DNA from: Amphiura filiformis
Taxonomy: Eukaryota; Echinodermata; Ophiuroidea; Amphilepidida; Amphiuridae
Direction: 5' to 3'
Length of the DNA stretch: 64,000 bases
Assembly: GCF_039555335.1 (NCBI RefSeq)
Contig: NC_092628.1
Span: forward strand, 72,445,706 to 72,509,705
Of this stretch, positions 4,632 to 57,056 are shown piece after piece (position 1 is the stretch's first letter; each line of letters opens with the position of its first letter). The translations under genes and the position numbers were made by a program. The notes under the pieces are model-generated. The model was not told the DNA's origin, did no database searches, and saw only the letters and a program-made list of their open reading frames with translations.

Positions 4632-4675
4632 CTATGAAGCACCTTCATCCATAGGAACTGCTTGATCCATCATAT
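4632..4675 (-). CDS. CARD gene, candidate terminal exon with stop
   Basis: The minus strand reads TTTCTATGCTGTTGCAG, then 44 bases encoding DMMDQAVPMDEGAS and TAG. The phase-1 start agrees with the preceding donor. There is no membrane anchor of the kind found at the C-terminus of MAVS. It is short, so it may be chance or a minor 3' end. Confidence 0.45.
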
Positions 4676-7600
4676 CTGCAACAGCATAGAAATCAAATTG
4701 AAATTCATTAGATGTGAAACAGAAACCATGTTTATGATGATATTGCTAAATTTGACTGCTATCATGTTTAAATCTTCAGAAATATCTACAAATTTTAAAA
4801 GAACAAAAACTTGCTATGCACTGACACAATATAAAATAAAACATTTTGGCAACCCACATGATTTAGGAGGTCATTTATATTTTATATTGGTAGTAGGCCT
4901 ACATGCAGGGTTTTGTCAAACTAGATCAAAAGAAAGGCCTAAAGAACTGATTGGAAATTTTGCCCAAATTTCCACATTTTATTTCTTTTTAACCAGTTTT
5001 GAGCATTTTTGCCTAATTGACACATTTTTATCTCTTTTTTTTCTTCAGAATTTCCCTTTTTCATTGAAAAATGTATTCACATGATTGGTCTTGAACTGCT
5101 AGCTATAGATATGAACCAGAAACCTTGACAGTAATGCATATAATATATCCCGTCTACTTTTGGTGACCATCCACAGGCATTCATTAGCAGTTTAGCATTA
5201 ATCATATTCGCAATACATCTACAAGTTGCACTCCTCCAAGAATGTGAAAATATCGGTGACCCAATGACCACATTGTGTATATGATCAGATGAATACACAC
5301 TACTATCAGCAAAATATCAGATCAGCAGAAACATGACTTTCATTTCTAATCAATTATACCCTCAGTGCAATTTCTTTTCTATTACTTTTCCCTCCTATTT
5401 TTCACTCTCTTTATGGACGAAGTATTTTACTGTATTGTGCTCTGATTTACCACACAGTGGGCTAGCTCACACACTGCTTGTCATTTATGCTCAAACAAAT
5501 ATATTGAATATCAGCCAAAATGTGTAGGGCTATCAGTTATTGGATCAGCAGACACATTTCAGTTCACCTTTAACACCTTTAATTTGTGATACAGGGAGGA
5601 AGAGCAGAGAAAGAGGAGAAAAAGAAGAGGAGAAAATGATGGAGAGATATTCTAAATTCATCCTGTACCTGATGTTGGGTGTTGTTGTCTTAGATAGTCC
5701 CTGAGTGCTCCACACCTGTTATTATTAAATTCTGTAGCTCGTAAATCAAAATATTCCTTCTTCAACAGATCTGCGAATACGGACTGACTCTCATTGCGTA
5801 ATGCCTGTATCAAGTCCTGTGGCCAGTCATTGTCCCTTTGTGGGTACATCAGTTCCTTCAAGAACACATCTGTGGCTTCGCCTTTACCTGATGTGTGTTC
5901 ATGGCTGCTTGGATTCGGCCCTTGTGGAGGTAGGGAATGTGTTTCAGTAAGACTAATGGGTTTATGTTTTTGCGGAGATCTTTTTGGTGTTTTCTCACTG
6001 CCATTTCGTAGAGTTGTCTGTGTTGAATGATGGCTACAAATGAAAAATAAAATAAAGATTTGAATTTAATGTATCAATATCATTCGCAGATACCTAGCAA
6101 ACAAATGTTTGTAAAACATTTTTAAAAGGGTGTTTGGTTAAAAACTTTCTATAGCATTTAAATGTCGGGTTATATAAAGGTTATGAAAACGTTTAAAACA
6201 TTTTGCATGAAAAATACTACAAAATTGTTTTTAAAAAATCTTGTCAAAATGTTATTGTAAAATATTGATTGAAAATGTTTTACAAAAATATTTTGTCACA
6301 GTATGTCACAATGTTTGGAAGGAGGGCAGGGCTTGACATTTAAACACCAACGTTAGTTTCTGCCCATTTCTAACCTTTTACGAAAACATTTTGCGTTGGG
6401 TAGCTGTAAATCAAATCATATGACTTTTTGTAATACCTGATATAATCAGAATACAAATGGCATAAATCAATTATACTACATTGACATACATGTATATGGA
6501 AGCAAGGAATGCTTTGCAGGTGTTTGAAGGGATGCAACACACATATGCATGTGGTTCTGACAAAATGTCCCATGCATGGTATTCAGCATTATATGCATGC
6601 CATGTCTCAGATGCCACAAAAAGGTTAGCTTTACTACTAAAATAGTTCCACAAGTGTATTCTTTTGATAAGTATTTTACGAAGTCCCTCTCACAAGATAC
6701 AAGGTGTTTGAAAAGTAAAACGACTTAATGATTTAAATAAAGCTGTAGACAATTGGGCTATTCCATTTAAAATCCACACTACCCCTGTGGAAGATTTAGC
6801 TAAAGTCTGCCACAGAGGGAGTATCAATTTTGAATAGAATAGACAATTGGCAACTTCTATTTGTAATACTCACTCCAGTTGTGGAAGATATAGGTAAAGC
6901 CATAATACAGGTGGAGTATGGGTTTCAAAAAGATATACCCTGACCAATTACATTTGAAAAACATACTCCCCCTGTGGAAGATATTACCAAAATCTTCCAC
7001 AGGGGTAGTGTGGATTTCAACTGGAATAGCCCATTATCCACTTACCTTGACTAAGTGTAGATCTAGGTTCAGGTGGTTCATTCATTGATCCTGTGAAATA
7101 CATTTCAAAAAATTATGATGAAGTTAAATCACAGAACTATGTTTGACATATTTTCATTATGATTTTATCAGCCATTCCACACCACTCTTATTTGATAGTA
7201 TATTGGTCTGTGAAAGAGCTTGGTCTGTTTTATATAAGTTCAGACTGTTATTACTACCATTTGCAAAGAAAGTCATCAATATAACCCATTAAGTTACAAA
7301 TCCCAGTTATCCCAGTATATCACAGTAGGGAATGTGGAAGGGTAGACAAAATGAACCATGCAATATGGTTAAAAAACTGTATATGTGCAAAGTCTCAACA
7401 TGACAAACAAGTTTCCAAATCACCCCCTCTTGCAAACGCCCCAAGAGTAGTAGTATAGTTTCATTTCACACACACATCCTAACTGTGGCCTTTTTCACAC
7501 ACACATCTGTACGCAATTGATCCTCTGTGGAGGTGATTGTATCACAAACTGGGGGGTTATACCCCTATGCTCAAAGACATGGTTTTTAAGCAACAAGGCT

Positions 7601-10600
7601 CCACAGTTGGTATGTGATATGTATAATATGTACACCTCCACAGTTTGAATGCAGTTGCGAATGCACCAAATTTGCTGCACTGACATACTGACTGGGTGCT
7701 ATGGTCCTATAGAGGGTAATACTCAGGAGAACTTCTTATTTCATACAGTAATTAATCAATTAATATCAGTGCTCTATAGTATATTTTTCACTTTTTTCTT
7801 CTAAATAGGACACTTGGTTATGTGATATGTGCATGTCTATAAACTTACCATCAGGCTGATCACTCCCACCCTGACTTTGCTCCAGTATTTGTCTCCTACA
7901 TATCTCTTCATACTTTTCTGCAAACCGATCTGCTAAAAGTTTCTGTCCACATTCAATCAATCCTTCCTGTAACCTTTGAGGCCATGTTGGTTCAGCGGAC
8001 TGAATAATGTATTTCAGTAATGCTTCCATACCATCCCTCTCTCCTCGATTTGTCGTGATTTCACTCACTTTAGATGCCCATTCAGATTTCAAGAAATACA
8101 GATAGACCAGTAGATCAGATGGTGACCCTTTGTCTATAAGTTGATTCCATACTTGAATGTCATGTAAGGCACTCGCCCACTTACTCAGGTCATCAAGTAA
8201 AACTGAAAAAAAAAGAAGAATGTCAATGTAATCTCACTTTGGGATATGCCAGGCCTCACATTAAAATATTGATGTATCATAAAATAAATAGCTCTGAACC
8301 TTCCAAGGTAGTTTGTTGTTTTATCCGAAACCTACTTGGGGGGCCCTACCCAATGGGCCCTTCCCCCTTCCCACACTTAAACAGCAAATATGTGTTTACC
8401 TTGTGATTGTGATCCACTGGTCTCCTGGGTGCTAACATCATTGTTAGAACTTGGACTCATAGGCTGAGCTCCTCCAACATAAACTGCAATAAAAATGAAG
8501 CAAACTTTGTTACAAACTAAAACACTGAAGAGAATTTTTAAAATGTCTTGTGTTTTGTGCTTATGTTATTTTTATATCCTACAAATATCCTCATCTGGGG
8601 CAATAGATACACACCAGCTTATACACATAACTCATCCCACCAACAGATATTTTTAGTCTAGATTTTATGTCGTTTGGGTTAAATGTTTGGGACAGACATC
8701 ATGATAACATCTTATATATATTTATTTTCATAAAATAATAATTATGCAAAACATGAATCATTATCCTAATATTATTGCATAAATTTGTTTTGTGAGGACA
8801 TTTAAATGTTTGGCTTCCATAAGGAAGTACACAACTTGCAAATATCTGTGTCCCACAAATATCCACCCCCCACACACAAACACCTTACGTGTAAAGTAGC
8901 ACACATACAGCCTGCAACCAAGGATCGATCTACAACTAGGCGCCAAGCCAATAGACCCACTTGTCAATTACCATCCAACCAAGACGAGACTTTCCTTGGC
9001 TGACTTTACGCTGGCTAACAAGACATGGCCTTATATGTATTTTTACATTGTTTGCAATATGCTGCTAGGGAAAGGGAACAGTGGACGTCCTTGGTTGCTG
9101 GGTGTCTTTGGCTATCACAGAACTTTCGGGTGTTCATCCTTTGCTTTGAGTGCCTTACCAATGCACCCCTCCACACACACACTCCACATGCACCAACACT
9201 AGCGGCAAACATGCCCCCCCCCACCACCACACCCCAACTAACAAACAAAAATACCTTGTGGTCCACTAGTCTCTTGTTGAGCATTGACATCATGACTTGT
9301 TGAATCGACTCTAATATAATCTGTCAAACAAAGTGAACATATCAGTTAAGCTGACGTGGCAGATGAGACAAAGTTCTGACACTTCTATCTCTTAAACCGA
9401 ACGCAAAGATTAATGTGTGGAGTAGCTTTTTTCATTGATCTGTAACATATTTAACTTGCACTTGTTTCTTTTTGAATCTTTAAGATTTAAAACAACTTGG
9501 TTTGAACAGTTTTTGTGAGCAGTATTTCATCATGTCATGACCCAAGTGTTTTTCTACACAGAGCATCTGGTTAAACAAATAAGCATATGAAAGTAAACAA
9601 ACAAACCAGAGGTCCATTTCACTAAACTTTACGAAGCTTCATAAGTCTTGAAATTCGTTCACAAATTGGTAGATCCTTCATGTAATTATTACCTATCTTA
9701 CGACGAGACGCAAGTTCCATTTTCCTATTTAACTTGCTTACAAATGGTACCCTTCGTATTAAGTAATAGGGATTTACTACAGGGACCCTTTGTAAAGTTT
9801 CGGCTAGTATTGGATATTCATAACTTTACGAACGGTTACTTGAGTTACGAAGGGTTAACAGTTTAGTGAAATGGACCCCAGGCCCATAGCCAGGATTTAT
9901 TTTGGGTGTGGGAATTCAAGGGCTAAAAAGTCGGGGCCTTTTGTGAATTTTTTCTTCGGTATCCCCTTATGGCTCTGAATAAAATTGTGGCCATCACAGT
10001 ACAACACCCATAATGATGAAACAAATCACTACTAACAGTGTTACCTTGTGCTCTGGCAGTCTCTTGAGCAGTGTACTGGGCACCATACTGTCGACCATCA
10101 TCGGAACGTAAACTCAATGGGTGATCTGACAAAGGCAAATAACAGAAAAATATATTCAGATCAACTATGAGGTAAAAGCATATAAATGACAAGTATGAAA
10201 AGTAACAGTTTGAAATAAGATGTGCCCCGGCCCAAAATCCTGTGAAAATCACTGCAGTCCTATCGATATGCTACCCAACGGGCCCGCAGAGCCATGAAAT
10301 TTTTAGTCAGCAATATGGACTCCATTTGCCCTGAAAATCAATAAAATCAATAAATGTCCAAAGCAAACATTAAATAGGGTGCCTCCGCCTAATGAATGCT
10401 GACATCAACCCATGGCACAACCTATTGTTGAATTTTGAGTATGAAGACTTACAAAGTGTCACAAAAGTGGACCAGTTTAACAATTTTGAAATTTGAGTTT
10501 GACCATGCAAATTGATGAGGAACTAAAGATTTTAAAACAAGGGGAAACTAATTTGATAAAATAAAATATATTGTTGATGTCATAGTTATTATAACCATGC

Positions 10601-11257
10601 AGTAAATATTATAATGCTGAATATTGCCCAATTTTTATTATGCTTTTTGTTCTTTTACAGTTTCCAAAGCCAATCAAAGCATATAATATCATTTGATTAC
10701 TTTACAAATTGCTACCTATGTGTATCATCATCTTGTGGCATTTAATTACTCAGCATTTCAAATGAGTTATCAGGTTCATAGTACCATTAGTTTCATAATC
10801 GACAGGTTGCGGCTTCGAGCCCCACCACAGCCAGTGTTGCGTCCTTGGGCAAGATAGCTTAATTCCCAATTGCTTCACTCTACTCAGGTGTAAAATGGGG
10901 GAGCTACTGGGGGTAATCACAGTCTAAGTCACTGAGAGTACCTGCCGCATCAGTTGCGGACTTAATGAAGTGGAAATAATTCTGATACACCTTAATGGCA
11001 GCAGAATAATTGTTGAAGTGTGCTGATTACTAGGTCATGCTTAGATGAAGCGCACATTAAATCACCGACATTATAGTTCATTGTGGAATTGAGCGTCATT
11101 TGCTTATTGAGGATATCAAATTGGCTCTGCTAAATAATCTATATTTTATAGAATAAAATGAAATACTTGTGATGTATGATGACCTATAAAAGAATTCTGG
11201 TATCAGTCTTAACTACTTCAGCTATAATAATGTAATACATGTACCTGCATGTGCCAT
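4632..11257 (-). CDS. CARD-domain protein, RIG-I/MDA5/MAVS-like (spliced gene, helicase not seen)
   Basis: Model: coding exons 11245-11257, 10045-10125, 9255-9320, 8400-8483, 7849-8202, 7046-7090, 5669-6033 and 4632-4675, plus 5' UTR exon(s). Every junction has GT donors and AG acceptors, and every internal join is phase 1. The N-terminus is Q/S/T-rich. Next comes a CARD-like domain with the W-P-x-x-L...L helix pattern of RIG-I/MDA5 CARDs, then a second CARD-like region. CARDs of this family recruit each other in antiviral signalling at mitochondria; that role here is inference. No DExD/H helicase exon was found down to position 1. The gene is therefore either a CARD-only adaptor or decoy (MAVS-like), or a receptor whose later exons lie beyond the window if the terminal exon is wrong. 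The penultimate exon is one base short for an open frame, so this may be a pseudogene or contain a sequence error. Confidence 0.6.
5669..6033 (-). pseudogene. CARD gene, second CARD-like exon with apparent one-base frameshift
   Basis: The acceptor TTTTTCATTTGTAG and donor CATCAG/GTACAG are good, but the length is 365, while all other internal exons of this gene are multiples of three. From the phase-1 acceptor the frame reads a CARD first half (RKNINPLVLLKHIPYLHKGR, then IQAAMNT) and hits TGA after about 58 codons. The frame one base back carries the CARD second half (DVFLKELMYPQRDNDWPQDL, then IQALRNESQSVFADLLKKEY) and leaves by the expected phase-1 donor. The second frame is also open upstream, as a Ser/Pro/Lys-rich stretch. 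A one-base deletion near 5865-5900, real or from assembly, explains this best. Confidence 0.6.
6096..6400. repeat. Degenerate X-family repeat in CARD-gene intron
   Basis: Contains AAATGTCGGGTTATATAAAG at about 6160, followed by GTTATGAAAACGTTTAAAAC, as in the X elements at 57258-57947. The ends are eroded, so the limits are approximate. Confidence 0.5.
6754..7033. mobile_element. Foldback MITE, family P copy 1
   Basis: The ends TGGGCTATTCCATTTAAAAT and CAACTGGAATAGCCCA are inverted. Internal CCCTGTGGAAGAT and ATCTTCCACAGGGG blocks also pair. It ends 12 bases short of the linker exon of the CARD gene, close to its splice donor. A relative is at 34652-34898 and a weaker one at 46353-46489. Confidence 0.75.
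7046..7090 (-). CDS. CARD gene, 45-base linker exon
   Basis: A 15-codon micro-exon, phase 1 at both ends, with acceptor TATTTCACAG and donor CAAG/GTAAGT. It encodes GSMNEPPEPRSTLSQ, a proline-rich linker between the two CARD-like regions. Confidence 0.55.
7849..8202 (-). CDS. CARD gene, exon with complete CARD-like domain
   Basis: 354 bases, phase 1 to phase 1, with a long pyrimidine tract before the acceptor and a GTAAGT donor. It encodes 118 residues. Helix-like segments include LSKWASALHDIQVWNQL, SDLLVYLYFLKSEW, GMEALLKYII, PTWPQRLQEGLIECGQ and KLLADRFAEKYEEI. The G-(M/A)-E-x-L-x-x-(I/L)...W-P-x-x-L-x-x-(A/G)-L pattern matches helices 4-6 of RIG-I and MDA5 CARDs. Other death-fold families are possible but fit less well. 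The tail is Q/S/G-rich and leads to a short linker exon. Confidence 0.7.
8400..8483 (-). CDS. CARD gene, Q/S-rich exon c
   Basis: 84 bases, phase 1 to phase 1, acceptor TTATTGCAG, donor CAAG/GTAAAC. It encodes a peptide with NNDVSTQETSGSQSQ at its end, the third member of the QETSG exon set. Confidence 0.65.
9255..9320 (-). CDS. CARD gene, Q/S-rich exon b
   Basis: 66 bases, phase 1 to phase 1, acceptor TTTGACAG, donor CAAG/GTATTT. It encodes a peptide ending SHDVNAQQETSGPQ. It shares the QETSG ending with its neighbours. Confidence 0.6.
9611..9877. mobile_element. Foldback MITE with GGTCCATTTCAC ends
   Basis: The left end GGTCCATTTCACTAAACT and right end AGTTTAGTGAAATGGACC are perfect 18-base inverted repeats. 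TTTACGAAG/CTTCGTAA-type words pair internally. It lies in a CARD-gene intron. No coding capacity. Confidence 0.8.
10045..10125 (-). CDS. CARD gene, Q/S-rich exon a
   Basis: 81 bases, phase 1 to phase 1, with AG acceptor and AAG/GTAACA donor. It encodes a segment ending QYTAQETARAQ. The ending resembles those of the next two exons (QQETSGPQ and STQETSGSQSQ), suggesting they arose by exon duplication. Confidence 0.6.
10775..11075 (+). mobile_element. tRNA-derived SINE-like element
   Basis: The head contains CATAATCGACAGGTTGCGGC followed by TTCGAGCCCC. This resembles an anticodon arm plus the RNA polymerase III B box (GGTTCGANNCC), with one change. It continues with TGCGTCCTTGGGCAAGATAG and CAGGTGTAAAATGGGG, a body typical of deuterostome tRNA-SINEs, and ends near AAGCGCACATTAAATCACC. 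An A box is not clear, so the left limit is approximate. Confidence 0.65.
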
Positions 11258-24598: not shown

Positions 24599-24737
24599 GT
24601 ACTTCCAATAGAGTGACAAACCAATGATGGCTGATTTAGTAGCATTGTGGGAAGTCTCTCTAAGTGACGGGAAACACAGAATAGAATTTGAGCATGGGAC
24701 CACATCAGGCAAAAGAGTCATCACAGTAGATGGAAAG
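24599..24737 (+). CDS. FAIM: FAIM exon with start codon
   Basis: Acceptor ATTATTAATATTGCAG, about 28 untranslated bases, then 37 codons ending VITVDGK at an AAG/GTATGT donor, phase 0. Its last 70 or so bases are repeated downstream. Confidence 0.95.
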
Positions 24738-27700
24738 GTATGTGTGATAGGAAACACAAAATAGAATTTGAGCATGGGACCACATCAGGCAAAAGAGTCA
24801 TCACAGTAGATGGAAAGGTATGTGTGATAGGAAAAACAAAATAGAATTTGAGCATGGGACCACATCAGGCAAAAGAGTCATCACAGTAGATGGAAAGGTA
24901 CATGTATGTGTGATAGGAAAAACAAAATAGAATTTGAGCATGGGACCACATCAGGCAAAAGAGTCATCACAGTAGATGGAAAGGTATGTGTGATAGGAAA
25001 CACAGAATATAATTTTGAGCATGGGACCACATCAGGCAAAAGTAAAAAATTAAAAATGAGTCATTTCAGATGATGAATGGCAACACTGCATTCGTAGTGA
25101 TAATGAAACATAGATTTTTATCGTACATGTGGTGTGCTTAGCCTGAGTCGCTCGTCCTATCTCGAACAAAATCGCCATGCGTGGCTGTTGAAGAACTAGT
25201 GGATTCGCCCTGTACTATCACAGCAATTTTTGACACAAAGATATAGGGATGAGAGCTGTGCACTAAACAACAAAGTGATGATCAGACACAGCAAACCTTC
25301 ACATAAAGGCTCATGTAGTATTAGTAATTGCATTTATGCAGCAATATTAATTGAAATATTAACAATGAACTAATTTTATGGACCTTGTTCTTTCTGCAGC
25401 AGCACTTTACAAGTGGGCAATTTATGTATATGGTCATTTTCACGGTAAAGGGTGTAACTTTGGATTTTTAACATTTTGATCCGTAGTTTTCTAATAAAGC
25501 CACAGAATTCCATGATTTTTGGCCACATAAGTCATCTAGTTAGCAGCTACCTTGGGTAGCATAATCATCTTCGGGAGTTACTGCGTTCAGTTTTAGCAGG
25601 CTTAAATGTACCTAATATTGCCATTTTGAAAAACTGTAAAAAACAGTAACATTTTGTAAAACCCTGTGTTTTCTTCAGTTAGTTCATGGATAATTTTTCT
25701 TATCCTGAAAGTACGGTCATATGTTCAGTAAACACTGCCACATTAGATTTAATTGTGAACAGCCCTGTATTTTTGAGAACCGGACTTCGATATTTGTCGT
25801 TTCGGAGGCTTCATTTTCCGTTAACAATTGTTAACAAACTTTGTGGGTATAGCTTTGGTTCATAATTCTTGTTTATTTCTTCACTTCTTTTTGATTCATA
25901 ACAGTTGATATCTTAACTTGAAATGGGTAACAAAAATTAGTTGATTTGCAAGCTTTTAAAATTTTTATAAAATCTTGACTTCAAAGAGCCGATTTTCCGT
26001 TAACTTTTTGAAGCCTCCTAAAAACAAACTGTTCAGCAAGCTTGGGCAAATATAAATAAAAGAGCTCATCCAATCTATTTATCAAAATGTAGCAAAGTAG
26101 ATCCTCAAGTCACTTGTTTTTAAATCATGGAGATATATATCACCGTTTGAAAATGGGACCCAATACAAACTTTCCGTTAACAATTGAAGCCTCCGAAACA
26201 AATGAAGCCTCCAAACAACAGTAAACTTAATTATCATCTATGCATATCTAAATTGGTATGTTCCATATTGATATCTGCATTGTAATTGTTGCATGATATG
26301 TGCAGAATGTCATAAATTAAAAAAAAATTGATATTATGGTTAATGCTTGAAAAATATACTGATATCCAAGAAAGCCCCACTCGGAGGCTTCACATGCAAA
26401 TAACACCATACTTAACAAATGGGTGAAAAAATTATCATGTTATAAATCTGCAATATCTGCCGATAGAATCATTGATTCAATACACACAAGAAAATAACAG
26501 CTTAGATGATCCCAACAGTGTTGTTTTCAAAAAAACTACTTCTGCCATGTTTAACCATTGTAAACATGAAGCCCGAAACAAAAAAAAAATGACTTGCTGT
26601 GATAATTTAATTTTTGTCACAACTGAAATTCAATACTTAGAAGCAAAGCATGAAAATTGGTAATTGTGATATTTTTACCTATTTTTTCATGTCAACTTGT
26701 AGTAGTTAGCCAAATATTTTACTTTTATGATCACCTGTGTTGTTAACTGAAGCCTCCGAAACACAAATCGCTTGAATTGCCAATTCTAAAAAATAACTCC
26801 AATTTCTGTGAAACTTGGCTGGGAGGTTCCTTTCATCAAGTAGTATTTGTACATGAAGTTAGACATTTAAATTATTTTAGGAACCCAATTAAAACTTAAA
26901 AAATATGTTTAAGGTTGGGAAATTTCCATTGCAAATGACCCTTGATGTTAAAAATTTTCAAAATTGCAATTACAAACATAGCAAAACATGGTATAAAATT
27001 TAACTTATATCTGTTGACTTACTTTGGAATGGGATTTCACATGTATTCCAGCTTTCATGTCATAATTTTCTGAGCTTATGTAAAATACATTTTTCTTAGA
27101 TTTTAACCAAAATGTTATGGAAATGTCAAATTTTTATCAGAAATCAAAAGGTTTAAGCCTTGAAACACTATTTTACTGGAATTTAAGTTGCTTCTATGCA
27201 TGATTACAGTAAACAGAAACATATTTAAGTGGTTTGAAATTTTGACCCTAAAAATCAAAAGTTACACCCTTTACCGTGAAAATGACCATATAGTTTAGTT
27301 TAGTTTAGTTTAGTTTAATCTTTATTAACGTCACACTCTCACATAGAGACCAGCCAATTCTGGCTTATGAGTGACAAAACAATAATATACAATATAAAAA
27401 TATAGCACATAATAATACATATAAATAGCACATAATACTATATATAAATATAGTCAAGGTTTTTTAAAAACAACAACATGCATATACATTTTTAAAAAAT
27501 AAACACAAGGAAATGTTAGCTGAAACCTCATCAAACGCCCATCATGCTATAGGCCTAGACCAAAAGAACCAAATAAGCAAGCCGCAAATGCGCAACATGG
27601 CAGAAGCAAGCATGATGTTGACGTGTACATGAGGAGACAGCTAAATAATAATTACAATTTATCCCTTAGTGTACACAATAGATTGACGAAGTGTGAGAAT

Positions 27701-30700
27701 TTCATTTGCAAATTTTGCTACCCTGCAACAATGGTTGCCATCTGACATTACAAAAATAAATTTATTGTAATCTGAAAGATTTGAGAAACTTGGGTTAAAT
27801 TTAACCATGTCATTAAAGAAATTGGATCTGATATCATTATACGTTGAACAAATTATAAAACAGTGGAACTCATCTTCAATACAATTCATATTACAAATAT
27901 TACAAATTCGGTTCTGTACCTGAGTGTTGTTATAACGATTCGTTTCAATGGCAATTGGAGCGCATCCACACCTGAAGAGGGCTAAAGCCGCCTATTACAC
28001 TTCTTCATAATGGTGTTTACATACTCAGCAGTGCAATAAGTGGATTTAAAGGTGCGATACGTACTGAAGTTTATTGCGAGCATTTGGGTTCTTTCTTCGG
28101 TCATTAAAGATTGCCTCTTTCCAACGATTTTCTACAAACAATTTAGCAGCATCGGATATATGATTAACTAAGTTTCGAGTACCGATCTGTTCAGAAATAC
28201 TCAAAATTAGATCACAATTAAACTTAGAACATAACGATCTTACTTTGTAACACCAGTTCTTAATACCTTTACCTGCTAAATGTTGTGACCATTGAAAAAC
28301 TTTACTTGGGTAACGGTTGCTGTCTAGTTTTGAAAGACGACTCCACAATCTAGCCACTGACTGCATTTGACGCTCAAAAGGGGAAACCCATCCCAAGTCA
28401 CCAAGCATGGCGTCATTTGGAACATATTTCCCAACACCAAGGAAAAATCGGCAAGCGGTAGAACACAGAATTAATCGAGGAAAACTCATCAATACCCCAG
28501 ACCCCACTGCCGTAGTCTAAAATTGGACCAACGAAAGAGTCATAAAGCTTGGTGAAAGAATTGAAATTGATACCACCCAGGGCTTTGACTTTACTGATGA
28601 CCATTCCCAGAGCTCTGGATGCAGAAGCAGCTAGATTTCGGTAGACACATGAAAATCAAGATATTCGTCAAACCAAATGCCTAAATATTTATAACCACTT
28701 ACTGTAGAGATGTTAGTATCACAGCATGTAAATTGTACATTAGATTTATCACGGCTTTTAGTGCGAAAATGAACTACCTGAGTCTTTGTGTCATTTAAAC
28801 TTATACGCCATCTTTTAGTCCAATTTGATACACAGTCTAACATTCTTTGAAGTGAACTTTCACTTTCAGCAACAAGTACAATATCATCTGCATACATTAG
28901 CAGATCAATTTTTGTATCAAGCACAGGAACACCACAGTTTAATTCTTGTATTTCATTCACAATACTATTCAAATAAATGTTAAAGAGCACGGGAGAAAGT
29001 AAACAACCTTGTTTCACACCGATTTCAACATCAAACCAATTTGTCATAAAGTTATTAACCCTTACCGAACATTTCACATCTTCATAAAGACTTTTAATAC
29101 AGTTATAAAAGTTACCATTAATACCTATACTTCTAAGTTTATACCATAAACAATCACGATTGACACGGTCAAATGCCTTCTTGGCATCAATAAAACAAGC
29201 AAATGTGTCTTTTTTACAAAGATTTCGATTCTGTACAATAGATGAAAATGTGTATAAATGATCAAGACAACCACGGTTCTTTCTAAAACCATTCTGCTCT
29301 TCATTGATAATGTTATTTTCTTCAAGCCAATCTGTGAGCCTTTTACGGATCACATCACAATATATTTTACATACCACTGAAATCAGCGTTATACCTCTGT
29401 AACTCATCGGATCTCTAGGATCATTATTACCAGATTTAGGTATTGGGTTTATTAAACCAAATCTCCATTTGGAGGGACAAATACCACATGTAAAACAACG
29501 GCTAAAGAGAGCATGGAGGACAACTGTCATAGTTTTGTTCTTAAGTAATTCTGTTACAATACCATCAACACCAGCAGCTTTATTCAATTTAGCTCTATTA
29601 ATTGCACCAATAACTTCATCAAGCTCAAGAGGTTTATTGAGATTAACTGCAGTATAATCTTTTTCAGACGAACTAGCTTCAAGATCTTTCAATTTTGTCT
29701 TTATATGTGACAAAACTCGTCATCAAAATTATTTGCGTCAGCTTTGAAAAGCGATTCAAATTCATTACACCATATGTTTAAAACATGGTCAGTATTATCT
29801 GTAGTTTCACCAGTATCTGTTATTACCTCCATTGGTATACTACTATTTTGTTTACAACTGTTAACACCAATTTTACCGATCTCTTTCCAAAACATAGATT
29901 GGTCACCATTCAACATATCATCAATATCTTTGATCTTACTGTATTGAAATTGTCGTTTAGCTTTCTTCACAGCTTTATCAAATTGTCTATGAGCTGATTT
30001 ATATTGCACAAATAAGGTATTACGCATGTTTGGTATTTTACATCTTAGCCAAGATTTTTGTTTACAACACACCTCATCCCAAATCAATTGAAGTGATTCG
30101 CTCCACCATGGTTTAGGAGTATGTCTCATACCCTTATTGTGTTTACCACGCTTATTGTTCTTTTTCTTAAAGTTCTTTTCAACTGCAGACTTAATGTAAG
30201 TTTCAAACTTGTCATAAACACTGTCAACCTCACTCTGATTGCCTTGGTTGGTATTTATTTCAGCAATCAATTCATTTGCTTTTGACACACTAGACTCATC
30301 CATAAGAAAAGTGGACGGTATTTCACGCAAATCATACAATTTAGCCAGACTTTTCAAGTCGACATTTGACTTATTCACAGATTTTTCATAACAAGAGAAA
30401 ACATTAGTTTTGAACACCCATGATAACAATGAATGATCAGGTATAGTACTACACACAGGCACACTATACTTTTCAATAAGATCTTGAACAAGTGACACTT
30501 CGAACTGCAAGAAAGTTCATGTATCCATCATATGGAACGAGACAGTAATCAACAACTGATTTACCTTTTGTTGAAACACAAGTAAAATTATCTATTACAT
30601 CATCATTTCTACCGCTTAGACAACACATATTAGCACTTATGCAAAAGTCAATGAATGGTTTACCTTGTGAGTTCAGTACTAAAATCAATGACTTTACGAG

Positions 30701-33700
30701 TTTTAACTTCATCAACACCTTCAATATAATCTACACTGTCACCAATTCTGGCATTAAAATCACCACATATTTGCAACGAACCAGTATCTTGAAATTTGTA
30801 AATATCAGAAATTAATGCATCAAAAAACTCTTCAGCGTGACCACCGCGACTTGAATTTTCGGGTGGTAAATAACAACAGCAAACATAAAAACTTTCCTTG
30901 GCACTTTTGTTAGTAAATTTCAACCACAATATATACCATCATGCGTTTTTTCCACAGTTTTGATTGTGAAAGATTTAAGAATACGTTTATGTACAAGAAT
31001 ACCAACACCACCTGAACCTTTTCTTGCTTTACAATGGAGAACGGATCTATTATGACCAAACCACATATAGTTGGGAACATTTATAACATCATTTTCTTTC
31101 ATATGAGTTTCTACAAGACACATAATATCAAAATCACACTTAGCAATAATATTTTTACGCAATTCACAGTTTTCTAAGTACCACCCCCCACTGTTCCAGC
31201 ATCCAATTCGTACTGAATGATGACAGCCATCTCTGTCCTAGTCCGAATGATCGTGATGAGAACCCGTGTTCTCTTGAGAACCCGTATTCTCAGCGTTGTC
31301 ACTTGATTCTTTGTACAGTTTATTATCTATGAACAGTTTACGCGTTTGAAAACTGTTTTCTTGCCAGCTTTATACGCGGTCTCCGCAACTGATTTCAGTC
31401 TGAACCGTTCCTTTCTGTCTGACTCGATTTTCGCCGGTCTTGATGTAATATGAGGCCTTTTTAAGTTCCTTCTTTGCTGTGATAATGGAATCTTTATCGA
31501 TTAGCTTAAAGTACTTTAAAAATGATTGGCCTATGACGATTCTTGTCTTGACTCTGTCTACCCGTCCGATGGGCAACCTCACCGTAATGTTCAGCCCAAG
31601 ATCTTTTTTCAGAACTCTGTTTACGATATCTCGGGGACCTCATCTTTCTTCTCAGGACCATAGTTGCATAACAACAAGTTATGACGCCATGAATGCCTTT
31701 CTAGATTATCACTTGATTCACGTAATTTCTTCACATCACTTTTGTGTTGATCTATTTGGTGTATCAGCTTAGAATTTTGTTGTTTTAAAGCTGAGACCTG
31801 TTTTTCTATGTCTGATGTACGGGATGATTGAAATTCAATCGATTCATCAAAATTCTGTTCGTTTTCTTTAACCATAGCTTCCAGTTTGTCTTGACGTTTT
31901 TGGAGGCTTGTAATTGACTCACGTAAGGAAGTTTGACCAAGGGGGTGACACTAAATTCACGGTTGTTCTATTCCCAACGCAAACCTATGACAAACCCCGC
32001 TGGTTTGCTCGTTAGAAAATGAGGCCAGTTATCGATCGGTTATGAATAATTAATTTCGATCCCTTGATTATGTTTAATTAGGGTTGGCAAATAACGACGC
32101 CGTTAGTTTTGCGAACTCTGCCTGTTCAATGCGTAGTAGCAAGCTTGAAAGAGCGCCAGCTAGCAGAGCAGGGAGCAATCCGTGATGGCGCACTAGTATT
32201 TCCCATCAGGCACCAGTGATTTGTTTTTTCCAGAAAGTCTACTAGTTTGAGTCGGGAATGACTTTTTACAAAAGTAATGTTGAAATAAGGACTTGCTGTC
32301 AATAATGCGATGAAAACGCGTGTCAGATGCAAGGTATGAAATACAAGTAGTATTTCAAGTCAATAAAACCTTTGACATGACATCTGACCTTTCAACATGG
32401 CGATATATTAGCTTGTATGCGGGGGTATTGTATGTGTGTTTGTATTCCTTTCCTATTCTCATTAAAAAATTATCAATCTGCAATAATCAGACATATTGGT
32501 GCTTGCGGCTATGGGCGTGAAGTAATGTTTTTACAAGTATGTAAAGAAATTTACATCATATTGCCATTTTAGTTATGTATATCAGCACCAATGGACCAAA
32601 AATCTGATTGGTCACAGTCTGCTTTAGGGCATAGGTGAGCAGATAGGTCGACGCCTTCAGCTACATTTGTACAGACCCCAGAAAAAAAGAGGATCTACTA
32701 ACTGTGTCATTGCACACCTTGATGCATGATGTACGCCAACTATCTACTGGTCAGTTCAGACTGTTGACAAATCTATCTGTGATTGATTCTATTCCGATCG
32801 GGAGAAAGCGCGTGTGATCATGATCATGGGAAATAAAAACAAAATTTTAAAAGGAAGCAAGTATAGGCTAGGGGCCTACCCACAAGCAAATCTCGGCCTA
32901 AATACCCGAGTCTACATATCAGAATCACCGATTCATTGTGTAATATAAAGCATATGCCTACCCAAGGCTCATTCTCATGAACATGAGCTAACACTAACAG
33001 GGATGTAAGTTTGTAGGTTTAATCCTTAATTATTGTGCCAGTGATGGCGCGGCGTTGTTCAGTAGCGGATCATAAATGAAGAGTACTTTATCCCTTATTC
33101 ATAGGTCTATCATCAAACGCGTGCTGTGGAAATTACGTAACCCATGTCCTTGAACTTTTGAAGATCTATAGCTGCTTTAACATGATTGAATGACATCGTG
33201 ATGCTCGATTATATATCTTTAGGAATTAACATTTCTTTTAAATGCAGGCCAATTGTGATTGCTTCAAATTTATCGGATATAATTCAATATTATTGGAATT
33301 GAATTCTACATGCAGCCAGGGACGGACACGTTGCATACATCGCCTAGCTTAAGTCGCCAGAGCTCTGCATTTCAGACAATAACAAGGCTACTATATGTCA
33401 AATGTCATACACTTCAATACATTGAATATTACATTCTGTTTTATATAACCAAGGTGCACGAAATATACTAGCTTATACATAACACAGAAAGGTGATATTA
33501 GGGATCAATTTAACATGCCTACACACTTCCATTTAGTTCGGACAGGCTCGCATGCATGCTATGAATAGCGCCGACTATAAGACCAGGGAGCAAATTTGAA
33601 TAATAATACGTTATTTACATAACAGTGCGGCTCATGCAAATGAGCTATTGCCGTTTCCAGGATATTGTTCCATGGTTTGACCATCAATTATCGTTCTTAG

Positions 33701-36700
33701 GGAGCTTCTGACAAAGGTTTCGAAGTCAGGCTCTGTTTGAGGTTGAATATCAGTACTCACATCATCATCTTTCACGGGTTTAACTTTCCGCTCCTACCTC
33801 TCAGTTCCATTGTTGGTGTTGGTGGACCCATTCCGGACACAAAAAGTCACTTAAATATCGTTGAAAGTAACAAAACCAGTCAAATATGGTCCAAGTATGA
33901 TCCACAGGATACAAATAGTAGGTGATGATGAAAATAGAAGATTGATGGCAAAACCAAATGGTGATATTTGATGATTATTTTGAGTCAATACACACGATTA
34001 AAATTATACGTGTTTATACGTTATAGTGCGCCCTCCTTATATATGTAGCCAGCACTTTTTCAGAGGGGGGAGGGGGCAAGCAAACTTTTAAGGGGGAAAA
34101 CTTAGACAAAAATGGTCAACATGGGCTTAAAAGTACAAAAAAGCATCCCACAGGGGGTAATAAGGGGCTAAGACTTCTCACAGGAGGGGGAGCTGCCCCT
34201 TTGCCCCCTCTCCCTCCTTCGGGGCTACGCCATTGATATGACAAAATTTTGCTTTGATTGAATTTTATGTGTTTAGCGTTGGAATTTCCTAACATCAAAC
34301 ATTTTTTTGCATTGATTGAATATTCAAATCCAGGAAGTTTTACGTAAGAATTGGATGTTCAAACTAGTTGGTAGAGAGACCTTCAACATCGGCAAGGTGA
34401 AAGGTACCATAAACATAGACGCATCAGGGGGATTCTCCTACGAGTACACATTGGATGTAGATGGTAAGAGTCTCAAGAAGTTTGTGGAACAGAGATCAAA
34501 GACAGCAAGAGTGTGGTGCACATCTGTGGCTGGCATGGACTATAGGATTGTACTTGGTAAGGATATTTATATTTCTCTATGGTTTGTTATCAAGCTAGCA
34601 ATAAGTTGGATGTCAATTGTCATGAAAATGTGATTTAATCAAAACAATCATTGGGCTATTCCAGGTGAAATTCATACCCTTCCACAGAGGGAGTATGTTT
34701 TTCAAATGTAACTGGTCAGGGTTAATTATTTTCAAACACATACGCCCCCTGTATTATGGCTTTACCTATATCTTCCACAACTGGTGTGAGTATTTTAAAT
34801 GGAAGTTACCCAATTGTCTATTGTATTTGAAACTCATACTCCCTCTGTGGAACTAAATCTTCCACAGGGATAGTGAGGATTTGAAATGGAATGGCCCATT
34901 CAGGCTCCTTGGTTTCCGATTGTTTTTAAGCAAACATAAAACTGTTTGAGAAACTTATTGTAAATGTCAGATTAAAGGAATTCAAAATCACAAATTACAA
35001 CATTTTAGGCTAAAAAAATTACCATGTTTGTTTCTTATAGGGAATCAATTTACTACAGAAAAGACACATTTTGTGAATAAAATGCCAATGAAAAACATTG
35101 CAAATTATTGTTTCTGTGTCAAAAGCTTTTCAAGTAAGATGAAATCAACAATAATATTCGTCAGTAGATAAATAAATCGTTCCCTCACGAGATCACACAA
35201 ATATCATACTGGTGAAAACTTATGGGGAGGGTAAAACAGGTGGATAGTAACAGAGTAATGGAGTTTTGCCTAGACTTTTTAGTGCCAAGGCGCAGCAACT
35301 TGGCTCACCAGACTACAGTGAATGACTCTCAGGTAGTCCAATTCTTAAGATTCCAAAACTAGGACTCTAACTGGAGACTTGGGCTGTTTTACCTAAATTT
35401 GGAACGTAAATCACTCAATTGGGCAGAAAAGGACTTGACTTACAAACTTTCGGTACTAAATTGACCGGTACTAAAAGTCACTGATCAATCAATACATGGT
35501 CACAGAACCCATTGTTACTGAAATTTTATGCTTTTTAGATACTTAAAACCTCTATAATTTGGATAAATTTAAAGGTAAATATGTAAAATTACTGCTGCGG
35601 CCGGACACTTGGGCCAATTTTAGGAAAGAAGGATTTTGGAGTAAAGAAGGATTTTGGAGTAGTGGCAAGTGATCACCAAGTACTCCAATTGTGTGCCTAC
35701 GCAATAGGCATCATGCTTTGGCATCACTGAATGACACACACACACTGACAGACTGACTGACAGACAGAGTGACAGACAGACACAGGAAGGCAGACATCCA
35801 AACAGAAAGATTGATTGAATAAGAGATGTTGACTGAATATATTGGTCTGGTTTTTTTTTTCAGAAAAAGATACAATGGATGTATGGTGCAATGGAGCAGT
35901 ACTTGATACAGCAGTAAGTAGGAAATATAACCATTTATAAATGCATGTATGAAAAAAACAGATTCTTTTTCATTTCCATGTCAGGTCTGTATCAACAGTT
36001 AACTCCTGACTGCAACAAGTAATAAGCACGACTTATTTCTTCTTGACAAAATTGATATGACAATATTATTTCATGAATAGACAAATTAAGTGACACCTTA
36101 GTTGTGAAAACTGAAATAGCTCTTTTGATATGCATGATGATGACAATGACATGAATTTTAGTATTCACTTCTTAATATTTTGTAGGCCTGTTATTGATTG
36201 TCTTATGTGTTGTATTATTGTCGAAATGATCCTAAATCAGACATGTAAAAATAAATTGTCTTTTTTCGACATTTTACGACACATGTCAAAAAAGGTGACA
36301 ATCTTAATTAAAATACACTTTCGGATAATATGGCATATCTGATATCACATTACACATTATATAATAAACACAATATTTATTATAGATGTTGCTAGCTTGA
36401 GGAAGCATTTTTGTCAAAGAATTTAGCAGGGAGAACCAAGGCTTTATATTAATGAGAAACCCACCATGCAGAGAGAGGCATGCAATGGAGACCCTTAAAT
36501 GACATGTACTTTCTGAATGTAAACTTTGGTTATATTCCCACTATTTCAATCAATGTCACAGGAATTAAGATAAATAGCATGGCAGTTTCTTTATATAGCT
36601 TAGTTGAAGATTGCAAGCAATGGTTCAAAAGTAAAAATGATTTAAAGGTCCGTAACCCGATCGACAGCATCATCCCCGATTTTTTTTCATTGTTGATGAG

Positions 36701-42716: not shown

Positions 42717-43390
42717 TAGTATAGTTAGCACCCAAGTTACTATGATTGGCCTACAGTTAGTATAAACAAAAACATGTATGACCACAATGTGTCATCTCAT
42801 CATGCATTTCAGCAACGCTTCGGCCCGTGATCGGTGCCAATAGCATCATTATAGTATAGTTAGCACCCAAGTTACTATGATTGGCCTATAGTTAGTATAA
42901 ACAAAAACATGTATTACCACAATGTGTCATCTCATCATGCATTTCAGCAACGCTTCGGCCCGTGATCGGTGCCAATAGCATCATTATAGTATAGTTAGCA
43001 CCCAAGTTACTATGATTGGCCTATAGTTAGTATAAACAAAAACATGTATGACCACAATGTGTCATCTCATCATGCATTTCAGCAACGCTTCGGCCTGTGA
43101 TCGGTGCCAATAGCATCATTATAGTATAGTTAGCACCCAAGTTACTATGATTGGCCTATAGTTAGTATAAACAAAAACATGTATGACCACAATGTGTCAT
43201 CTCATCATGCATTTCAGCAACGCTTCGCCCGTGATCGGTGCCAATAGCATCATTATAGTATAGTTAGCACCCAAGTTACTATGATTGGCCTATAGTTAGT
43301 ATAAACAAAAACATGTATGACCACAATGTGTCATCCCATCATGCATTTCAGCAACGCTTCGGCCTGTGAACGGTGCTAATAGCATCATTA
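42717..43390 (+). repeat. Five tandem 135-base units
   Basis: Units start TAGTATAGTTAGCACCCAAG at 42717, 42852, 42987, 43122 and 43256. The period is 135, with one unit of 134 that lacks a G. Units are nearly identical. They contain GTGTCATCTCATCATGCATT and CAGCAACGCTTCGGCC. No open frame crosses units. They sit inside a segment with GGTCAGAC/GACCATGG words on both sides. Confidence 0.95.
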
Positions 43391-44102
43391 GCATACATGT
43401 GGGTATGACCGCAAGTAACCATTATCCGACTATATAGTACTCTGCCATGTGACCATTCATGGTTTAGTAAACAATAGTCAGACCATGGCTTATTAAGCCT
43501 GACCACTAGCCATGCTTTGAGAAACCAGTCTAATTATTGTCTATTTCATTGTACAGTGAGTGTTTGTTTATGTTTTAGTATAGATGTGGAAGGTAACCAA
43601 ATATGTTATGTAATGGATCAAAAAATGTTATTGTAATATCATGTTTATAATTCAATGAACTGCATTGTTTTACTCGATGAACTTGAATTTTGGCATGTAT
43701 CAAGTGTATGTGTGCTATCTTACCCTGTTAATGGGAACAAACAAATAATAATAATTATAATTAGAGAGGGCGGCCTATCTGCTGTGTCATAGCATGACAT
43801 CAGTCAATATGAGACATTAAATATTAAATGCGAGGATCCAGAGGATACATGCCTGAGAAAATATATAATAATAATAATGTTAATTTTTAGACTTTTCTGC
43901 AAGTTAGAATAAAAATGCAAAATGCCAATAATTAATTATACATCTTTCCATGTCCTTAAGATTGTAGCTGGATATACATTATCCATGGGAATAACATTTA
44001 TTTTTAAGCTTGCTTTAATTTTATGTCGCTATCCCACAGACTACTACAGACCATGTATCAACGGTCAAAGTCCCTGTGCATTGTATGCTATTCTTGCATA
44101 TT

Positions 44103-55991: not shown

Positions 55992-57056
55992 GTAACTACG
56001 GAGCCAAAGATGAAAGGAGATCGGGAGGTACAACTTGATAATCAACCTTCCCCAATCCGTGTCTTGCGAGGGTCTCGTAACAGGAGACCAAAGACTTCAA
56101 ACATGACTGATACATCGCCACATTCGCCCAGAAGGAAGTCTTTAAATGATAACAGCAATATTTCGACTTCGTCAATTACAGAAACTGAGATTTCTCTCGA
56201 TTCTGGATATAGCAGTCAAAACTCCGGTGAGCAGTTCCTAATGGATTTTAATATGCAATGTCCTCAGGTGCTCATGACATCACCTGTTCGTAGACGAAGA
56301 CCATCTGGTAATTCTGTAAGATCCAAACGTTCAAAAAATCAAAGATACGCATTGAATAAACGCAAAAGTTTACCAGTGATATTCGAACAAGAGGATGCTG
56401 CAGTATTATGCTCCCCTACCACGCCTCCACCTCGTCGCAAATCACAAAGAAACAAGATCAAGAGACGACCTTCATCAGTTGCTGATGCTCTTATTGGTGC
56501 TAGTTATAATTTTCCTGGTGCAAGACGGAAAGGTTCAACAGTTTTACTTGATAGAAACGGATTGAAAAAACGCATATCAACATTGGCAGATGGTGTTGTG
56601 AGTGGAGGAGCTACAATTGTGCCGGTTGTCCCAGCTACAGGTTACAATGGCTCGAGGCAAAACTCTGAGGTCTATAGCGTTATTCCACGGAAAACGCACC
56701 TGCCGAGATACGGGTTCATCATTCAAAGAAATCCATATACACCTCCTCCTAGTAACCGCCGTAGACTATCAACAGTTACTATATGTGGCTATCCACATCA
56801 AGTACATGTACGACGACAACAATCTACGCTATCCATAGATGAAATTAATAAGAAATTAACGCAAGCAAAACTGGAGAGAAAAGACTCCAAGGTTCAGTTC
56901 TCCGTTGTAGAAGATGCTGGTGCAACTCCTAGTGATGAGAGAAGGGATAGTATTGCAAATAAGAGCGACGGGACTGCATCGCAGGTTGCTGAGTCGGTGT
57001 ATTCGCCAACTGGAAGTGAGAGTGAAAGCGAAACAACATCCAGGTATATATCTTGA
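55992..57056 (+). CDS. Basic, disordered, phosphosite-rich protein of unknown family
   Basis: An open frame of 348 codons from ATG 56010 to TGA 57056. An in-frame TAG precedes it, overlapping a possible acceptor GCGTAG at 55986-55991, which would allow six extra upstream codons. The protein is low in hydrophobics, with no signal peptide, membrane span or fold that I recognise. Five similar motifs of basic residues followed by S-S/T-V/L occur: RRPSSVAD (about 152), RRKGSTVL (172), KKRISTLAD (186), RRRLSTVTI (250) and RRQQSTLSI (268). Such sites suit basophilic kinases such as PKA or AKT (inference). DSGYSS at 64-69 fits the DSG-x-x-S degron read by beta-TrCP. The C-terminus is S/E-rich. It may be a single-exon gene or the last exon of the gene starting at 48130. 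Confidence 0.7.
   Translation, partial: VTTEPKMKGDREVQLDNQPSPIRVLRGSRNRRPKTSNMTDTSPHSPRRKSLNDNSNISTSSITETEISLDSGYSSQNSGEQFLMDFNMQCPQVLMTSPVRRRRPSGNSVRSKRSKNQRYALNKRKSLPVIFEQEDAAVLCSPTTPPPRRKSQRNKIKRRPSSVADALIGASYNFPGARRKGSTVLLDRNGLKKRISTLADGVVSGGATIVPVVPATGYNGSRQNSEVYSVIPRKTHLPRYGFIIQRNPYTPPPSNRRRLSTVTICGYPHQVHVRRQQSTLSIDEINKKLTQAKLERKDSKVQFSVVEDAGATPSDERRDSIANKSDGTASQVAESVYSPTGSESESETTSRYIS

Follow-up and report, generated by a model that had tools for sequence, protein, structure and literature searches.

A predicted two-CARD gene of Amphiura filiformis with a second CARD exon split between two reading frames, possibly by an assembly error

Human MAVS is reported to bind TRAF2 and TRAF5 via the motif PVQET (PMC3743401). 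A helicase-free dual-CARD ORF has been described beside MDA5 in Branchiostoma floridae and ascribed there to partial gene duplication (PMC4565553), and CARD genes are reported to adjoin RLR genes in Nematostella (PMC2686710). Here we analyze a predicted two-CARD gene on the minus strand of a 64,000-nt stretch of Amphiura filiformis DNA (contig NC_092628.1, positions 72,445,706 to 72,509,705, assembly GCF_039555335.1), the whole of which is called the window; all positions below are counted within it. The gene resembles CARD proteins of the RLR/MAVS type but falls outside the definition of MAVS, and it probably works like a CARD adaptor. It was not found in the titles and abstract openings returned by searches for echinoderm MAVS/CARD papers, which is no proof of its being unpublished.

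Eight exons (E1 to E8) separated by GT-AG introns have been predicted, as read from the sequence, with all introns in phase 1, the last of them (E7 to E8) in the frame of the E7 donor. E1 (11245..11257) comprises the start ATG and first codons (MAHA+G) and a phase-1 donor; a TAG lying in frame seven codons 5' of the ATG fits E1 as the gene start. E2 (10045..10125, 81 nt), E3 (9255..9320, 66 nt) and E4 (8400..8483, 84 nt) contain TAQET, AQQET and STQET, respectively. The first CARD lies within one exon, E5 (7849..8202, 354 nt; positions 18–91 of the Pfam profile CARD_2, PF16739, 39.4 bits, E 6.3e-10), and is followed by a linker exon, E6 (7046..7090, 45 nt), by the second CARD exon, E7 (5669..6033, 365 nt), with its halves in two frames, and by the last exon, E8 (4632..4675), which encodes 14 residues, DMMDQAVPMDEGAS, and then a stop, if read in the E7 donor frame.

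The gene is like MAVS (IPS1) in combining CARDs with motifs that look TRAF-binding, [PSAT]xQET, which resembles PVQET, one each in E2, E3 and E4. Shuffling the first 82 residues 20000 times never produced three such motifs, but this count is no test of independent motifs, as the three exons look like duplicates. These small phase-1 exons (8400–10125) have similar ends, each encode a putative TRAF2-type motif, and are apparent exon duplicates. Unlike MAVS, with its single CARD at the start, the gene has two CARDs in its second part, and about 81 residues (E1–E4) precede the first CARD exon; inspected by eye, the E8 end has no hydrophobic stretch, whereas MAVS has a C-terminal transmembrane helix. 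As for the RLR helicase, the E8 stop follows shortly after the second CARD, and no helicase was recognized by eye among ORFs of at least 60 aa at 1–24000. In having two CARDs without a recognized helicase the gene is similar to the dual-CARD ORF of B. floridae, but while that ORF is reported as 98% identical to the first two CARDs of MDA5, no close second copy of the CARDs is seen here: a tblastn search of the window returned the gene itself and otherwise matches with E 0.23 or worse.

Among solved chains, the best sequence match to E5 is RIG-I (DDX58; E 0.0022, a weak match, with a designed repeat protein next at E 0.003), and to E7 with its two halves joined, MDA5 (IFIH1; E 0.23, also weak). 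Pattern searches with E5 in prokaryote contigs and with the second half of E7 in viral contigs gave 40 and 6 matches, respectively, none of them confirmed, as expected for a non-animal collection.

Several other features were observed in the window. An inverted repeat (6754–7033) with 87-nt arms, 83% complementary, ends 12 nt from the edge of the E6 donor, and a part of it recurs inverted at 34679–34810 (89% over 132 nt). Tandem repeats are found at 24658–25015 (four copies of approximately 80 nt) and at 42717–43499 (135 nt, three near-identical and two diverged copies). A LINE element occupies 27659–31950 on the minus strand; its probable ORF1 is itself divided between two frames (31370–31639 and 31621–31950). 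The ORF at 55992–57056 is rich in S, R and P, has no Pfam match at E 0.1 and may be a host gene exon.

The length of E7 is 2 mod 3, while all five other internal exons (E2–E6) are multiples of three, as the earlier note had remarked, and are entered in phase 1. The frame opened by the E7 acceptor (TTTGTAG) meets a TGA at 5858–5860, 189 nt 5' of the donor (GTACAG), and the straight-spliced message ends after 272 codons, so that the truncation at about 272 residues suggested earlier is exact. The frame that is open backwards from the donor, and into E8, differs from it in being read one base earlier. The same note had described a CARD-like first half in the first of these frames, before the TGA, and had placed a CARD-like second half and the correct phase-1 donor in the –1 frame; this observation is borne out. 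In the first half of E7 neither frame contains a stop, which means little, as a second open frame appeared in 6134 of 20000 codon-order shuffles (31%). When E7 was compared with the window by blastn, only E7 itself and matches of 13–33 nt with E 0.23 or worse were obtained, and thus no repeat or duplicate overlaps E7 in the window.

The curated cut-off of CARD_2 is 28.2 bits. The first half of E7 in the acceptor frame (5906..6033) matches profile positions 4–42 at 12.8 bits (E 0.12), not significant by itself, and the second half in the donor frame (5669..5888) matches positions 49–92 at 22.4 bits. No single frame of the exon reaches the cut-off, the acceptor frame scoring 12.8 and the donor frame over the whole exon, 24.1 bits. 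Joined over one X, the halves match positions 4–92 at 39.6 bits (E 5.4e-10), approximately the score of the unbroken CARD of E5. Both pass the cut-off of this profile, which describes CARDs of the RIG-I/MDA5/MAVS type; E7 differs from these in being split by a frame change. Controls with a shuffled first half scored 21.9–29.9 bits; two of the ten reached 28.2 bits, hence the cut-off alone proves little, but all ten fell below the real join. Thus the profile search of the first-half frame, proposed earlier as a check, gave a match that is weak alone but precedes that of the second half, in a join superior to every control.

The position of the frame change was estimated from eleven joins. Six of them, with the last acceptor-frame codon starting at 5908 to 5893, scored 39.4–40.5 bits, and the five outside this range, 34.5–37.7 bits. 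This peak places the frame change most probably at approximately 5889–5905. The one-base deletion near 5865–5900 (pseudogene allele or assembly error) put forward in the earlier note is supported, as a single frame-changing indel fits both the profile and the splice phases; its place is narrowed and slightly shifted.

Other measures are less favorable to the first half. Its acceptor frame has the lowest codon-usage score of the three frames under all three training sets (–0.41 compared to –0.10 and –0.09 if trained on E1–E6), and in the second half the donor frame ranks first, although two of the three training sets include that half. As the comparison rests on 46 codons, codon usage was weighted below the profile and the splice phase. 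When the two CARDs of the gene were aligned pairwise with BLOSUM62, the first half added little (52 compared to 48), and this was matched by 275 of 2000 shuffles. The support for the first half as a part of a CARD hence comes from the splice phase and the family profile.

Ways of reading E7 in a single frame were considered and rejected. An intron within E7 that restores one frame has little room, as the two parts of the CARD_2 match nearly meet, and the donor-like site CAG|GTAAAG at 5888 is in phase 0 and would, as worked out by hand, join the phase-1 E8 out of frame. The whole of E7 read in the donor frame, as a linker and half a CARD, would need a phase-2 entry at the acceptor against six predicted upstream phase-1 donors, and a second open frame would turn up by chance at the rate given above. 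Most likely, judging from the assembled sequence, E7 is a complete CARD exon that carries one frame-changing indel.

Beyond the exon structure, the frame conflict and the continuity of the CARD profile, all of which are shown here, we infer with about even confidence that the fault lies in the assembly and not in the animal. E7 would then be an ordinary second CARD exon of an adaptor-like protein of approximately 350 aa, with a single CARD read through it in the living gene, and the assembled sequence would lack one base, or carry a change of the same effect, at approximately 5889–5905, introduced by a consensus error or by the merging of the two haplotypes of a heterozygous animal. Collapsed heterozygous or diploid assemblies are reported to produce such frameshifts (PMC8445201); the trypanosome case described there is similar in that one indel cuts short a gene that is sound in all other respects, but there it was demonstrated by reads, and here it is proposed from the assembled sequence. 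The 1052 nt of coding sequence contain this single lesion and no second mark of decay, all other splice sites and frames being intact, as expected of an error or of a very young change.

The LINE provides a further comparison. At 27659–31237 it consists of eight open pieces. Of the seven transitions from one piece to the next, six involve a change of frame; the remaining one stays in frame, but has a stop at either side, the two stops being 54 bases apart. Pfam matches to endonuclease or reverse transcriptase were obtained for three of the eight pieces (one below its cut-off), and the continuity of the others was judged by eye. Frame changes thus outnumber stops, which is weakly suggestive of indel errors, but is also possible in an old copy. 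Other observations count against an assembly error. The six changes are divided equally into three base-short and three base-long ones, indicating no particular error process; the interval 5889–5905 contains no run of four or more identical bases, and is thus an untypical site for a long-read error; and the 354-aa ORF at 55992–57056 is unbroken, which shows that errors do not pervade the window. The codon usage of the first half of E7, lending no support to the acceptor frame, also counts on this side.

That the frameshift is a real allele, whether heterozygous, segregating or fixed, is a serious possibility, somewhat short of an even chance. This reading takes the sequence as given, with the TGA well upstream of the E7 donor, and the lack of other damage suits a young loss as well as it suits an error. 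Dispensable copies are also plausible, given the partial duplication of deuterostome CARD genes reported in PMC4565553. On the other hand, the second half of E7, the splice sites of the last intron and E8 are intact and in frame, which argues against a long-standing loss. Transcripts containing E7 would stop after codon 272, and the expected outcome is either decay of the message or a protein in which the first CARD is followed by half of the second. Decay would be expected under the general 50-nt rule, as the TGA precedes the last splice junction by 189 nt.

It is unlikely that the change is simply tolerated through splicing. As the donors of E6 and E7 are both in phase 1, skipping of E7 would join E6 to E8 in frame and yield a one-CARD protein of 228 aa; but since every intron is in phase 1, the same would hold for the skipping of any internal exon, and hence this is not specific to E7. 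Alternatively, an inner acceptor at 5920, which is in the right phase, could join E6 to the donor frame with an in-frame product, omitting the first half of the CARD; this site, however, ends in AAG and would yield half a CARD. Still less probable is a frame change that is real and kept, in the species or as a balanced allele, so that E7 would act as a switch, its inclusion leading to a truncated or decaying message and its skipping to the 228-aa protein, and a variable second CARD would tune a MAVS-like adaptor.

Programmed –1 ribosomal frameshifting, which would unite the halves into a full CARD, is the least probable reading: the shift is indeed –1, both frames are open as far as the TGA, and in 12 acceptor-frame heptamers one slippery triplet of the two is present (the nearest to the join is GGTAAAG, 5888–5882), but no full X XXY YYZ heptamer occurs in 5889–5905, the sole strict match ahead of the TGA (AAACCCA, 5963–5957) is approximately 50 nt upstream of the join, where slipping would presumably swap a part of the CARD for donor-frame residues, and an open second frame is, as shown by the 6134 shuffles, common; we find no sign of a programmed mechanism at E7.

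The gene itself is worth annotating, as two CARDs following three repeated QET exons, with neither a helicase nor a membrane helix seen. Should the allele be real, an immune adaptor would here have lost one of its CARDs naturally. Mostly, the case is a warning that a CARD gene may well be complete even where annotation would shorten it or label it a pseudogene.
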